A program made the translations under genes and the position numbers. Below, one piece after another: positions 27,485-31,797 of a DNA stretch of 37,433 bases (positions within the stretch are counted from its first letter, which is position 1; every line of letters starts with the position of its first letter). Source of the DNA: an uncultured Arenicella sp. GTDB lineage: Bacteria > Pseudomonadota > Gammaproteobacteria > Arenicellales > Arenicellaceae. The notes under the pieces were generated by a model. The model was not told the DNA's origin, did no database searches, and was given only the letters and a program-made list of their open reading frames with translations. Where the stretch lies: positions 1 through 37,433 of the forward strand of contig CALINO010000069.1 in assembly GCA_938045295.1 (NCBI GenBank), written 5' to 3'.

Positions 27485-27516
27485 AAAAAAGACCTCAACT
27501 CATAAAGAGTTGAGGT
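27485..27516 (-). terminator. Intrinsic terminator of the bufferin operon
   Basis: ACCTCAACTC (27492-27501) pairs with GAGTTGAGGT (27507-27516) over a 5-nt loop; on the minus strand six U follow (27485-27490). It lies 70 nt past the DoxX gene stop. Confidence 0.88.
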
Positions 27517-27586
27517 GAAATGCAATTGCCTAGCTTAGGGGAAATACGTGGCAACTGCTTGGGTAGAAGAGCCTGTCTTGCTTAGC

Positions 27587-28003
27587 TTATCGGTCTTTAA
27601 ACAACCAATAATCTATTGATAACTTATCACCGCCGTAACCGGCGATCATGCCAAGAATCATCATCCAGAAGTAATGCTGAGGGTCTGGCAAAACAAAGAA
27701 CTGAATCACCGCACTCATCACCAATAAGCCGAGCGCACCGATGCGGGTGAACAAACCCAAAATCAGCAAAACGGGTAATACTAATTCACCCGCCGTAGCC
27801 AAAAATGCGGCCGGCTCAGCAGGCAAAAATGGCAAAGCAAAATCGTCTTCGAATAATTCCACCGTCTCTTCATAATCATCAAGCTTTGCCAAGCCTGAAC
27901 TGAAGAAAACATAATAGCCAAGGTAAATTCGAGCCCATAGGTTTGCCAACGGCGCAATCACTGCACGGCATAAGCGGCAAAATGATAGATAAATGTTTGT
28001 CAT
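27587..28003 (-). CDS. DoxX family membrane protein of the bufferin operon
   Basis: The 138-aa protein has four hydrophobic spans, with the DoxX pattern LWARIYLGYYVFFSSGLAKL, then FLATAGELVLPVLLILGLFT with RIGALGLLVMSAVIQFFVLP, and YFWMMILGMIAGYGGDKLSI. DoxX proteins are often found at the end of DUF692/DUF2282 clusters and are sometimes named BufD there. A role in handling modified peptide or metal at the membrane is likely but unproven. It starts 122 nt after the BufB-BufC fusion ends and is followed by the operon terminator. Confidence 0.88.
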   Translation of the reverse strand: MTNIYLSFCRLCRAVIAPLANLWARIYLGYYVFFSSGLAKLDDYEETVELFEDDFALPFLPAEPAAFLATAGELVLPVLLILGLFTRIGALGLLVMSAVIQFFVLPDPQHYFWMMILGMIAGYGGDKLSIDYWLFKDR

Positions 28004-28125
28004 TGTTTTCTCTTATTGGTTGAGCATTATTAATCACTGAGAACCACAACAGTAAAGCTGTGCGGTTCGTTCTAAGCCATTCAACTTATAACAGCTTTGG
28101 GCCCAGTTTATAAAGATTTATAGCG

Positions 28126-29778
28126 TTATTTCTCAGCTTTAAAATTAAGCAATTGCTTTTCAAATAGAAAAGCCAAGTTTGCCGATAACTCATTCATTTC
28201 TATAGACCCGCTCAACCGATCAATTGCTTGCAATAAATTTTTAGATTTTTCAATTTGCTCTATTAGCGCGCGCGCTGTGTCACTCAAACGCTCTGCCTGC
28301 ACACGCTGATGTTGTTTAAACACCAACAGTGTGTCTTGAGATTGTTGTAGGTCAATCGCTACCTGGCCTGAGAAGTCAGGCAAGGATTGACGATGTATTT
28401 CATAAATGGGGTACTGAGAATCGATCAGCACCGCACTGTTATTCAAACCAACCGCCATGCTTAATAAAGCCTCTTGCGTGACCGAAGCCGGGTCAATGTG
28501 CTCAGGATCACTTTGATGCGCGTAGTACGCCGAGTGCAGTGCCCACTCATATTTTATTAAATCTGCCAAATAAGGTAAGCCAGACAACGCCTCGAACTTA
28601 CCCAGCACCGTTGTTAATTCACCGCCATACTCATGCACATTGCCAATGCTTGGTGGGCTTACCTGGATTAACGTTTGCGACATTTGCTTAAAAAACTCTT
28701 TGCCCACCACGCCGGCAGTGGCTGGAAAGACTTCCAACAAATACTCCAGTAAGGCACCGAATGCATTGTTTTGATAAATACCAATGCGATGTTGGTGAAC
28801 ATCGACCGCGCACTGAGTTGCATCATTTAACTGCAGCACATCATCAAGAAAGGCCTGCTGAGTACCGCTCAAATCACTATTGAAATCGTTATTAGGTGCT
28901 TTCGCCGCCGATACGGGTTCACAATGCGCAGTATTCGCGGCAGTAGAGCACGGCGTGTTCGCGATTAAAACATTGGCTTTCTCACACTCGGCCACTAAAA
29001 CGGCAAATTCGGGGAAGTCTGAATCCCACTCAAACAATGTGGGGCGAACACCGTGTTGCTCTAATGCGCTGCGATACAATTCCCACACCGGCTCATACAC
29101 TGGCTGATTATGAGTATCAATTAGCACGGTTTCGGACTCGCCCTCAATCTGACGATCAACCTCGGTGTAACCGGCCAAATGGTATTGCGCGATGGCATCA
29201 GAGTTCAACTCACGTAAATAGGCACGCGGGTCGCGCCCAACATTGACTGAACTGACGTGGATGTTATTCACGTCCACCAACAAACCACAGCCAGTATTGT
29301 GCGCCAGTTGGTTTAAAAATTCTGGTTCAGAAATTTGCAGTTGGTCAAAAACAAAATAGTTAGACGGGTTTTCAACCAGCACTTGTCGCCCCAACACTTG
29401 TTGCATTTGATCGACGTGCTCACTCATGATTGTTAACGCCTGCTCAGTCAACGGCAATGGTAACAAATCAGGAATGTGGCGGTGAGAATAAGCGCTCCAC
29501 GCCAAATGCTCTGAAACCAAGATAGGGTCAAGCAGGTCAACCAATGATTTCAGTTGTTGTAAGTGTTGCGAATCCAAAGCATCGGCTCGCCCTAAAGACA
29601 AGCCGACACCGTGCAAACTTACTGGGTAATGGTCGCGCAGCTCACGTAAACGCTCCCGGGCGATAGAGTGGCCGAAATAATTTTCTGAATGCGCCTCAAT
29701 AAAGCCCAATTCAGGCCGCTGAGTAAGCACATCATTAAAGAATTCAGGGCGAATACCTAAACCACACTGCGTCTGCAT
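28126..29778 (-). CDS. MNIO (DUF692) enzyme fused to DUF2063 partner (BufB-BufC fusion)
   Basis: One 550-aa chain joins two proteins that are usually separate. Residues 1-275 are a DUF692 (MNIO) TIM barrel, a multinuclear-iron oxidase that modifies Cys in precursor peptides. Likely ligand residues are in FIEAHSENYFG (27-36), HGVGLSLG (56-63), SEHLAWS (89-95), VENPSNYF (135-142), LLVDVNNIHVSS (166-177), YHLAGYTE (199-206), DTHNQPVYEPVW and LFEWDSDFPE. A linker (about 275-300) leads to a DUF2063 domain, seen in DDVLQLNDATQ, RIGIYQNNAFGALLEYLLEV and LPYLADLIKYEWALHSAYYA; this partner class binds the precursor. It follows the 93-aa precursor gene by 39 nt. Confidence 0.93.
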   Translation of the reverse strand: MQTQCGLGIRPEFFNDVLTQRPELGFIEAHSENYFGHSIARERLRELRDHYPVSLHGVGLSLGRADALDSQHLQQLKSLVDLLDPILVSEHLAWSAYSHRHIPDLLPLPLTEQALTIMSEHVDQMQQVLGRQVLVENPSNYFVFDQLQISEPEFLNQLAHNTGCGLLVDVNNIHVSSVNVGRDPRAYLRELNSDAIAQYHLAGYTEVDRQIEGESETVLIDTHNQPVYEPVWELYRSALEQHGVRPTLFEWDSDFPEFAVLVAECEKANVLIANTPCSTAANTAHCEPVSAAKAPNNDFNSDLSGTQQAFLDDVLQLNDATQCAVDVHQHRIGIYQNNAFGALLEYLLEVFPATAGVVGKEFFKQMSQTLIQVSPPSIGNVHEYGGELTTVLGKFEALSGLPYLADLIKYEWALHSAYYAHQSDPEHIDPASVTQEALLSMAVGLNNSAVLIDSQYPIYEIHRQSLPDFSGQVAIDLQQSQDTLLVFKQHQRVQAERLSDTARALIEQIEKSKNLLQAIDRLSGSIEMNELSANLAFLFEKQLLNFKAEK

Positions 29779-29817
29779 TATTACCCCAGCGCAATCAAAT
29801 GCGCTTCAGTTATGACT

Positions 29818-30099
29818 TTATACGTCGCTATCTGCGGCCGCTTTTTTCGCTGGCTTTACGTTGGCACCAACAATCTTCTCACAGGTTCCTTCTGGTACGT
29901 AAATCCACTCTTGCGGGTCATTGTCTACCGCTGCTTGCCCTGCACAACTATGACCATTAGCACCACAATCGTTCATGCCAGCTTTAACAATACCCTGACA
30001 CTTCTCATAACCTTCCTTGCCAGCATGTGACAATGATGGTGCTGCTGCTAACGCAACCGCTACGATTGATGCTGCCGTGATGTTCATTTTAGTTTTCAT
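29818..30099 (-). CDS. DUF2282 bufferin precursor (BufA1-like)
   Basis: The 93-aa peptide has a signal sequence ([20 protein letters not shown]) and a core with four cysteines at 34, 45, 52 and 73, in [21 protein letters not shown] and [11 protein letters not shown]. This is the DUF2282 pattern of BufA-type bufferin precursors, which MNIO enzymes convert to thiooxazole-bearing, copper-binding peptides in the periplasm. GAGG lies close before the ATG. A Lys/Ala-rich tail ends it. The modifying enzyme gene follows by 39 nt. Confidence 0.9.
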
Positions 30100-30150
30100 T
30101 GATATTCCTCTTATTCAATTAATTAAATACAACTGTACTACTTAAAACAA

Positions 30151-30186
30151 AACGGTTTTGTGCAAATCGTTTCGCACAAAACCGTT
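30151..30186 (-). terminator. Intercistronic terminator-like hairpin in the bufferin operon
   Basis: On the minus strand AACGGTTTTGTGC pairs perfectly over 13 bp with GCACAAAACCGTT (10-nt loop) and is followed by a U-rich TTGTTTT. It lies between the two precursor genes and may stop part of transcription. Confidence 0.65.
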
Positions 30187-30200
30187 GTTGCTTACTGCGG

Positions 30201-30231
30201 CCATTGAGCGCCTCATGCAAAAGCTCAATGG
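30201..30231 (-). repeat. Hairpin after the first precursor gene
   Basis: CCATTGAGC (30201-30209) and GCTCAATGG (30223-30231) form a perfect 9-bp stem 11 nt past the stop codon of the 134-aa precursor gene. Without a U-tract it is more likely an RNA-stabilising 3' stem than a terminator. Confidence 0.55.
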
Positions 30232-30241
30232 ATCGAACCAA

Positions 30242-30646
30242 TTAGCTTTCTTCAGTCGCTTCTAATGGCTCACCATAGCGATCAACCAAACGACCACCGG
30301 TCACTGACTCGTCAGTTTGTTCGGCGATTTTCTTACAAGCCTTAGCTAATTTTTTCTCTTTCGTACCTTCCGGTGCTTCAACTTCGCCAGCGCAAATTGC
30401 TACGATGTTGCCGCAAGTTCCGGCTGGCACTTTAATCCAAGCACCGGGCATATTGTCTTCTGCAGCGTTGCCTTGGCAAGAAATACCCAACGACTTAACT
30501 GCACACGTATTTTTACCACCTTTAACAACGTCTGCGCAACGCTCAGATTTAGCGGCCGACGCCACCGGTGATACGCTCATCAACGCAGTAGCCAAAACTG
30601 ATGTTGCTAATGCGGCACCCAATGTGTTATTTGCTTTATTTTTCAT
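30242..30646 (-). CDS. Second, C-terminally extended DUF2282-type precursor
   Basis: The 134-aa protein starts at ATG 30646 (GAGG 8 nt upstream) with a signal peptide ending near VASAA. Its core repeats the precursor cysteine spacing: C37-x10-C48, C57, and C78 after exactly 20 residues, as in the 93-aa paralogue ([30 protein letters not shown]). It then adds about 50 residues with two more cysteines (C85 in [10 protein letters not shown]104 in [10 protein letters not shown]) and a hydrophilic end [18 protein letters not shown]. It is the first gene of the bufferin operon. The tail has no match I recognise. Confidence 0.8.
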
Positions 30647-30674: not shown

Positions 30675-30703
30675 TGATTACCTTGTTTTATAAGAACCGG
30701 CAA
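30675..30703 (-). promoter_or_regulatory. Likely promoter of the bufferin operon
   Basis: Read on the minus strand: TTGCCG (30698-30703), 17-nt spacer, TAATCA (30675-30680), about 30 nt before the first precursor ATG. The boxes are fair sigma-70 matches; no ECF-type box was seen. Confidence 0.4.
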
Positions 30704-30735
30704 GAAACAGATTCATTACATCATTATGTCTATTA

Positions 30736-30775: not shown

Positions 30776-30846
30776 CTTTAATCACGCCCTTTAATCCTTT
30801 ATGTTCGGTGCTGTTATTTTTAGCACTAGGCCTAGCGAACCAAATC

Positions 30847-31797
30847 ATGCATGAATATATAAAAGAGTCTAACATTTACACTGTAGACGCACTGTATTTT
30901 AAAAACGACCTTGCCGCCATTCACCTAATACGTTCTGGTGACCGTTTGTGCATCATAGATACGGGCACTCAATACTCGGTTCCATACGTCAAGCAAGCCA
31001 TTGAACAGCTTGGTTTAAGTTTTGACCATGTTGACTACATTATTCTTACTCACATTCATTTGGATCATGCTGGCGGCGCCAGCGCACTGATGCACGTTTG
31101 CCCAAATGCTGAACTTATTGTGCACCCCAAAGGGGCGCGCCACATGGTAGACCCAAGCAAGCTGATTAACGGCACAATTGCGGTGTACGGCGAAGATAAG
31201 TTTAAAGAATTGTATGGCCAAATTAACCCGATTGATGCCGCCCGAGTTATCGAAGTAAAAGACGCGCAAACCCTGCATTGGGCTGACCGCCCGCTTCACT
31301 TTATCGACACCCCAGGCCACGCCAGCCACCATCACTGTATTATTGACCAACAAACAGGAAGTGCATTTACCGGCGACACGCTTGGCATTTCATACCCGGC
31401 ACTGCGTGATAAAGACAACGCGTTTTTAATGCCCACCACCACACCGGTACAATTTAACCCCGATGCCCTGCATCGCTCCATTGACAAGGTCATGAGCTTT
31501 CAACCAACAACGCTGTACCTCACCCATTACAGCGCCATCTCGCCAACAGCCCACATGATTGCGGGTTTGCACGAGCAAATTGACGATTTTGTCATGCTAA
31601 CCCAACAAGCCGCTGAACAAGACAACGCCCCATTTGAAACACAGCTCACTGACTCAATACAACATTATTTGATTCGCCGATGCATGAATGAACTCCCTGG
31701 CCTTAATGCAGACACAGTTCATCAATGGGTGGGCTTAGATGCCGAATTAAATGCCCAAGGCCTGGCTTTCTGGTGGCAACACAAGCGTGTGGCATAA
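30847..31797 (+). CDS. Metallo-beta-lactamase-fold hydrolase
   Basis: The 316-aa cytosolic protein has the full di-zinc site: LTHIHLDHAGG (H-x-H-x-D-H), DTPGHASHH with the third His, TGDTLG with the bridging Asp, and a later LTHYS with the last His. The first strand region reads AAIHLIRSGDRLCIIDTGTQ. The substrate class is open; glyoxalase II-like or lactonase-like are possible. ATG 30847 is preferred to an in-frame GTG at 30808, although no ribosome site is clear. It is divergent from the bufferin operon and may be unrelated to it. Confidence 0.85.
   Translation: MHEYIKESNIYTVDALYFKNDLAAIHLIRSGDRLCIIDTGTQYSVPYVKQAIEQLGLSFDHVDYIILTHIHLDHAGGASALMHVCPNAELIVHPKGARHMVDPSKLINGTIAVYGEDKFKELYGQINPIDAARVIEVKDAQTLHWADRPLHFIDTPGHASHHHCIIDQQTGSAFTGDTLGISYPALRDKDNAFLMPTTTPVQFNPDALHRSIDKVMSFQPTTLYLTHYSAISPTAHMIAGLHEQIDDFVMLTQQAAEQDNAPFETQLTDSIQHYLIRRCMNELPGLNADTVHQWVGLDAELNAQGLAFWWQHKRVA

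Follow-up and report, generated by a model that had tools for sequence, protein, structure and literature searches.

On the minus strand of a 37,433-nucleotide stretch from an uncultured Arenicella sp. (contig CALINO010000069.1, positions 1 to 37,433; hereafter the window), positions 30720 to 27492 constitute, as judged from sequence, a bufferin (Buf1) operon. It encodes two precursors of the DUF2282 family, of which one (BufAx) carries a tail and the other (BufA) does not, a maturase (BufBC) in which an MNIO domain and its DUF2063 partner are joined in one chain, and a DoxX protein. We compared this genome with 17 others of the genus (18 in total), and since the gene set recurs across them, it stands beyond chance. 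An initial annotation, made from the DNA letters alone, had proposed a bufferin operon with a fused BufB-BufC enzyme and two DUF2282 precursors; profile matches bear this out, and every feature that it had described was recovered at its position. The hairpin between bufAx and bufA is an addition to that description. The features are as follows:

30693..30720 (-): candidate promoter TGTAAT-N16-GGTTCT, resembling those of extracytoplasmic function (ECF) sigma factors, 74 bases 5' of the bufAx start codon, 0 mismatches
30242..30646 (-): bufAx, long (tailed) bufferin precursor of 134 residues with a signal peptide and six Cys; PF10048
30201..30231 (-): 9-bp inverted repeat directly 3' of bufAx
30151..30186 (-): terminator-like hairpin with a perfect 13-bp stem, then TTGTTTTAAG, between bufAx and bufA; proposed partial terminator
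29818..30099 (-): bufA, short bufferin precursor of 93 residues with a signal peptide and four Cys; PF10048
28126..29778 (-): bufBC, fused maturase of 550 residues, with an MNIO domain (5-270), a linker (about 272-305), DUF2063 (306-390) and an HvfC-like C-terminal region (to about 534)
27587..28003 (-): doxX, 138 residues; PF07681 with 70.7 bits
27492..27516 (-): terminator-like hairpin with a T-run, 3' of doxX

The two precursors

Both precursors match DUF2282 (PF10048) above its cut-off of 22.4 bits, BufAx with 46.4 and BufA with 82.2 bits, and the long precursor, whose kinship the initial annotation had left to a profile search, is thus related to this family. Each of them has the four core Cys, at positions 37, 48, 57 and 78 in BufAx (C-x10-C-x8-C-x20-C) and at positions 34, 45, 52 and 73 in BufA (C-x10-C-x6-C-x20-C). 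As originally described, the first precursor adds to this shared core a tail with two more Cys: its chain continues for 56 residues past the fourth core Cys and includes Cys85 and Cys104. The signal peptides of both were read from the sequence by eye, the long one with an invariant A-x-A.

Within the genus, the long precursor is found in 16 of the 18 genomes and is missing from two (G005 and G014). All six of its Cys, the two of the tail included, are invariant (16/16). The same holds for A29 and A31, where the signal peptide ends, and for a GGRLV block of the tail near the C-terminus. Invariant columns number 32 of 48 in the core, 13 of 46 in the tail and 7 of 34 in the signal region. For six hand-picked pairs of tails, the ratio of nonsynonymous to synonymous substitution rates (omega) was 0.11, 0.03, 0.04, 0.05 and 0.39, with one pair saturated; these values are rough, the synonymous divergence (dS) being above 1 in three of the five unsaturated pairs.

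Outside the genus, matches to the long precursor in 61 relatives stop at residue 90 or before. A few profile matches in a sample of the class (369 genomes) extend past position 100, and all of them cross stop codons except one in G463, which we rejected as a tailed relative: it has only four Cys, and its own tail is unlike that of BufAx. Likewise, a scan of 398 genomes of the phylum with the tail only returned the source genome and two weak partial matches, of which one crosses a stop codon and the other lies within a 622-residue frame. A Pfam search assigned a family to none of the 16 tails, viral contigs gave no long-precursor match, and a Foldseek search with the precursor model reached a best E of 5. 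Because the scan of named genomes relied on just two core patterns, it could overlook a tailed precursor whose core has changed. The suggestion that the long precursor is uncommon has held up, as it turned up in this genus only across the relatives, class, named-genome and tail searches. In one genus genome (G011), the start of contig C44 (L051:1-107) matches the long-precursor tail, though the full copy ends contig C47; this stretch is a contig overlap or a second copy.

The fused enzyme

The single 550-residue chain joining DUF692 and DUF2063, as claimed in the initial annotation, is seen in the domain matches: residues 5-270 match MbnB_TglH_ChrH (E 8e-95) and residues 306-390 match DUF2063 (E 4e-13; 50 bits vs a cut-off of 27.2). 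The chain also exceeds the cut-off of the curated MNIO_BufB model (NF050167; 337.3 vs 310 bits), and a match to HvfC over residues 307-534, far under the cut-off at 45.5 vs 142 bits, is the basis for proposing a part of the RRE type (recognition element of ribosomally synthesized and post-translationally modified peptides, RiPPs). The MNIO half has a fold like those of TglH, MbnB and 3bww. Among the matches listed, those from Foldseek and VIA-align cover this half and barely the partner half, and a phmmer search with the latter matched no solved structure (E up to 1); both outcomes are compatible with kinship to NGO1945. Confidence in the structural model of the chain (predicted TM score, pTM, 0.83) is low near residues 281-300, a region that coincides with the linker, whose length between fixed columns varies from 26 to 40 residues in the genus. 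Nine residues that form the putative iron site, as read from an alignment to 3bww, are invariant in all 17 fused enzymes. Three of them were putatively equated, with HvfB itself left unaligned, with N175, D242 and H244 of HvfB, which are essential in that enzyme (PMC13419390).

One chain spans both domains in 17 of the 18 genus genomes, the exception being G014. A search of the order (109 genomes, 48 with a match, 31 of these outside the genus) gave no spanning match outside the genus. In the class sample, 220 genomes had a match, and the 12 candidate regions fetched from the matches listed include at least two true fusions outside the genus, both confirmed by Pfam: a chain of 587 residues in G324, which adjoins a short Buf1 precursor, and one of 568 residues in G199, which adjoins a Cys-rich peptide that looks Buf2-like by eye. 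The other 10 regions have no single frame across both domains. These two chains rule out that the fusion is an invention unique to the lineage. Because they pair with other precursors, the fusion is, on these sequence comparisons, not tied to the long precursor, and it is rare and recurrent. On plasmids, 351 records match; among 30 listed, the annotation gives two separate genes in 28 and is lacking in 2.

The 17 fused-enzyme operons contain both precursors in 10 cases (counting G011, whose operon spans two contigs), only the long one in six (G001, G002, G004, G009, G012 and G016) and only the short one in one (G005). The fused enzyme is more often accompanied by the long precursor than by the short one, and its family occurs with either. 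Since operons of all three kinds exist among these 17, the notion that the fused-enzyme family handles both precursor kinds is supported indirectly. Three of the genomes with long-only operons (G001, G009 and G012) carry a short precursor at another place in the genome. The other three (G002, G004 and G016) gave no further precursor match, absences that are not firm, with some genomes being 78-98% complete. In G009, the gene of a short DUF2282 precursor stands alone, and behind it come a Sigma70_r2 gene and an unassigned open reading frame (ORF) of 200 residues (L125:4200-5032, contig C14); region 4 of the sigma factor is below its cut-off, and the group is a possible ECF unit in a genome whose operon is without the short gene. 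Besides its fused-enzyme operon, G005 carries another bufferin locus of the ordinary kind (L049, contig C1), with separate MNIO and partner genes and a DoxX gene.

Promoter, hairpins and neighbouring genes

Upstream of the long precursor, the motif TGTAAK-N16-GGTTCT is present with 0 mismatches in nine of the 16 operons and with one mismatch in the other seven. As the motif was derived from those same sequences, the count of 16/16 is not independent, and what tells most in this evidence is that the spacing stays at 16 bases although the DNA has diverged. The initial annotation had considered that the long precursor might be transcribed independently; we find it behind this genus-conserved promoter-like site, which together with its profile match to DUF2282 leaves the proposal unrefuted. 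The short precursors within the operons have at least four mismatches to the motif in all nine cases, and a promoter of their own, tested against this motif only, was rejected, with no site of fewer than four mismatches (9/9). In G005, where the long gene is absent, the -35 box is kept and the -10 box is not. When compared with promoters of the sigma-F/ECF16 type (-35 GTAACC-like, 16-base spacing, -10 CGAA), the motif agrees in the -35 box and the spacing and departs in the -10 box. The sigma-F promoter of Caulobacter is GTAACC-N16-CGAA (PMC3511200), and RpoE7 of Sinorhizobium has a promoter with a similar -35 box and spacing (PMC6180224). The source genome has 10 Sigma70_r4_2 matches over the cut-off.

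We rejected the motif as the mark of a wider regulon, since its exact matches number 23 in the 18 genomes vs 23 for a reversed control pattern. Nine of these 23 are bufferin promoters. Among the 14 others, 11 have, counting both strands, an ORF of at least 60 residues starting less than 200 bases away, many of which are probably spurious, and no common theme was apparent by eye, a second doxX aside. This second doxX (L106:1049-1459; G017, contig C254) scores 23.7 vs a cut-off of 23.6 bits and lies behind an exact copy of the motif. At two further loci (L050 in G001, contig C25, and L049 in G005, contig C1), short precursors are preceded by TGCAAGCAA and CGATCT at equal spacing; this arrangement is three mismatches from the operon motif and may represent a second promoter of the ECF type, serving other copies of bufferin genes.

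A terminator scan yielded 5 sites in the region vs a mean of 3.8 in shuffles, and because shuffles give nearly as many, single terminator sites are weak evidence. Across the genus, the gap 3' of the long gene ranks in its folding at or below 8/200 shuffles in 12 of 15 operons, as against 2 of 11 for the control, the gap that separates bufBC from doxX, with 10/200 for the window's own control gap; four gaps of less than 40 bases and the split operon of G011 were left out of this comparison. In nine operons, a single stem of at least 7 pairs follows the long gene, and its sequence differs between species. These patterns make it likely that transcription is partially terminated after bufAx, which would give an excess of precursor.

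Upstream, the operon is adjoined by a divergent gene with a metallo-beta-lactamase fold at 30808-31797 (+), which is found in this position in all 17 bufferin-bearing genus genomes. We do not favour it as a member of the system, as it keeps the same place in G014, where bufferin genes are absent. At this empty site, it lies 113 bases from a tRNA-synt_1c gene, which we take to be GluQ-like. The neighbours on the side of the tRNA-synt_1c gene match those of the window, and those past the lactamase-fold gene do not.

Proposed mechanism and relation to known systems

The best explanation of the whole, which we consider moderately probable, is a Buf1 metal-stress operon, and it builds on the gene content observed here, on conservation, on the patterns of promoter and hairpins and on the residues of the iron site. 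Transcription would begin at one ECF-type promoter and would mostly be of the long precursor, and the hairpin after bufAx would pass only part of it on to bufA, bufBC and doxX, so that there is more substrate than enzyme. The partner half of BufBC (DUF2063 and the RRE-like region) would hold the signal peptide of either precursor, the bufferin signal peptide being part of recognition (PMC12452194). The same half would keep the iron centre active, much as a partner is required for the active mixed-valent iron state of HvfB (PMC13419390). The MNIO half would then turn the central core Cys (48 and 57 in BufAx, 45 and 52 in BufA) into 5-thiooxazoles, which PME1-dependent MNIOs are reported to install (PMC13097082). 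After Sec export and subsequent cleavage behind the A-x-A type site, the outer core Cys would be paired in a disulfide, as described for Buf1, where the central Cys are modified (PMC12452194), and the mature peptides would bind copper in the periplasm. Calculated with assumed cut sites, the average masses before modification would be 10639.9 Da for mature BufAx (residues 32-134) and 6895.6 Da for mature BufA (residues 27-93). We infer the chemistry, the export and the copper role from studied relatives. The tail of BufAx would most likely fold into a small cap, closed by a disulfide between Cys85 and Cys104; cap and disulfide are guesses. The best structural model of the precursor has predicted local distance difference test (pLDDT) values of about 75-87 over residues 71-130, with helices at 78-85 and 97-105 and a strand at 119-121.

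Several observations weigh against this explanation. The five precursor models disagree, with mean pLDDT from 65.6 to 47.8, and three of the 15 operons (G001, G012 and G015) show no unusual folding 3' of the long gene. The -10 box, GGTTCT, is unlike that of the known bufferin ECF systems. Furthermore, NrsF (PF06532), the anti-sigma factor of those systems, gave no match at E up to 0.001 in the source genome, which is 99.4% complete, while a control search of Caulobacter gives a match. Finally, G005 combines the fused enzyme with the short precursor only, and the long one is therefore not essential.

The invariance of both tail Cys in all 16 long precursors would also fit a tail that is itself a target of the enzyme, with Cys48, 57, 85 and 104 all converted to thiooxazoles and the copper capacity about doubled. 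Repeat precursors are known in which MNIOs of this group act on many Cys (PMC12538549), and the modified Cys of DUF2282 substrates show little conservation around them (PMC13097082), so that local sequence does not exclude those of the tail. They are, however, a single pair, as expected of a disulfide, their motifs show by eye no likeness to those of the core, and modification in Buf1 is confined to the two central Cys (PMC12452194), all of which leads us to regard modification of the tail as unlikely. We are similarly doubtful of the broader view that BufAx stands for a distinct six-Cys bufferin class, in which the folded tail is a second modified metal site and one promoter and one naturally single-chain enzyme provide two copper peptides of differing capacity.

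A tail without any role in metal binding could instead act before or during modification, for instance by guiding the precursor to BufBC or by delaying its export. Follower peptides are known in RiPPs (PMC12452194), and the tail, with its invariant C-terminal GGRLV block, is conserved alongside the fused enzyme in the genus. But the enzyme of G005 occurs without a long precursor and the two fusions outside the genus occur with other precursors, so the fused enzyme needs no tail, and we think such a docking or follower function quite improbable. It is very improbable that only the short precursor is modified and the long one acts unmodified: although the possibility of non-substrates has been raised for genomes with several precursors (PMC12452194), six of the 17 fused-enzyme operons have the long precursor only, and in three of these genomes (G002, G004 and G016) no second precursor was matched.

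The closest known arrangement is the bufferin 1 operon of Caulobacter vibrioides, CC3254-CC3257 (DUF2282-DUF692-DUF2063-DoxX), which has the same four kinds of genes in the same order (PMC3511200), as well as an ECF-type promoter whose -35 box is of the same type and whose spacing is likewise 16 bases. In C. vibrioides, however, there is one short precursor, the MNIO and its partner are two genes, and sigma-F acts with NrsF, whereas the operon described here has two precursors, one of them tailed, a fused enzyme and another -10 box, and its genome gave no match to NrsF. Other traits are already known from bufferin clusters (PMC12452194): tandem precursor genes and several precursors per MNIO pair, as here, and long DUF2282 proteins, reported with 30-835 residues. 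The bufferin fusions reported there are to cytochrome c, to a formylglycine-generating enzyme (FGE)-sulfatase, to MerC or to another bufferin domain, and in the main text of that study, its supplements being outside our scope, we found neither this tail nor a chain of MNIO and DUF2063.

Such a chain has been engineered as HvfBC (PMC13419390, preprint), with the MNIO before the DUF2063 partner, as here. HvfBC is laboratory-built, has no linker and acts on a repeat-type (oxazolin) precursor, whereas BufBC is natural and has a linker of 26-40 residues. The laboratory fusion is markedly more active than the co-expressed pair of HvfB and HvfC, and by analogy, this may explain the natural fusion. 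MovX of Vibrio is likewise a natural single chain, of an MNIO and an RRE-type domain (PMC13419390), but no DUF2063 is described for it, and its substrate and reaction are different. A literature search, with supplements outside its scope, gave no mention of a natural MNIO and DUF2063 chain, of which mining tables may hold some, and among the titles listed for Arenicella and bufferin, nothing was on point.

The partner of an MNIO is often weakly bound, and an artificial fusion was needed to obtain the active iron state for HvfB; a natural single-chain BufBC is therefore a tool for this state. The operons of the genus, with the long precursor only, the short one only or both, are natural pairs for working out the substrate rules of one enzyme family. 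Lastly, a large family of peptides that probably bind copper gains, with the conserved tail, an as yet unstudied element.

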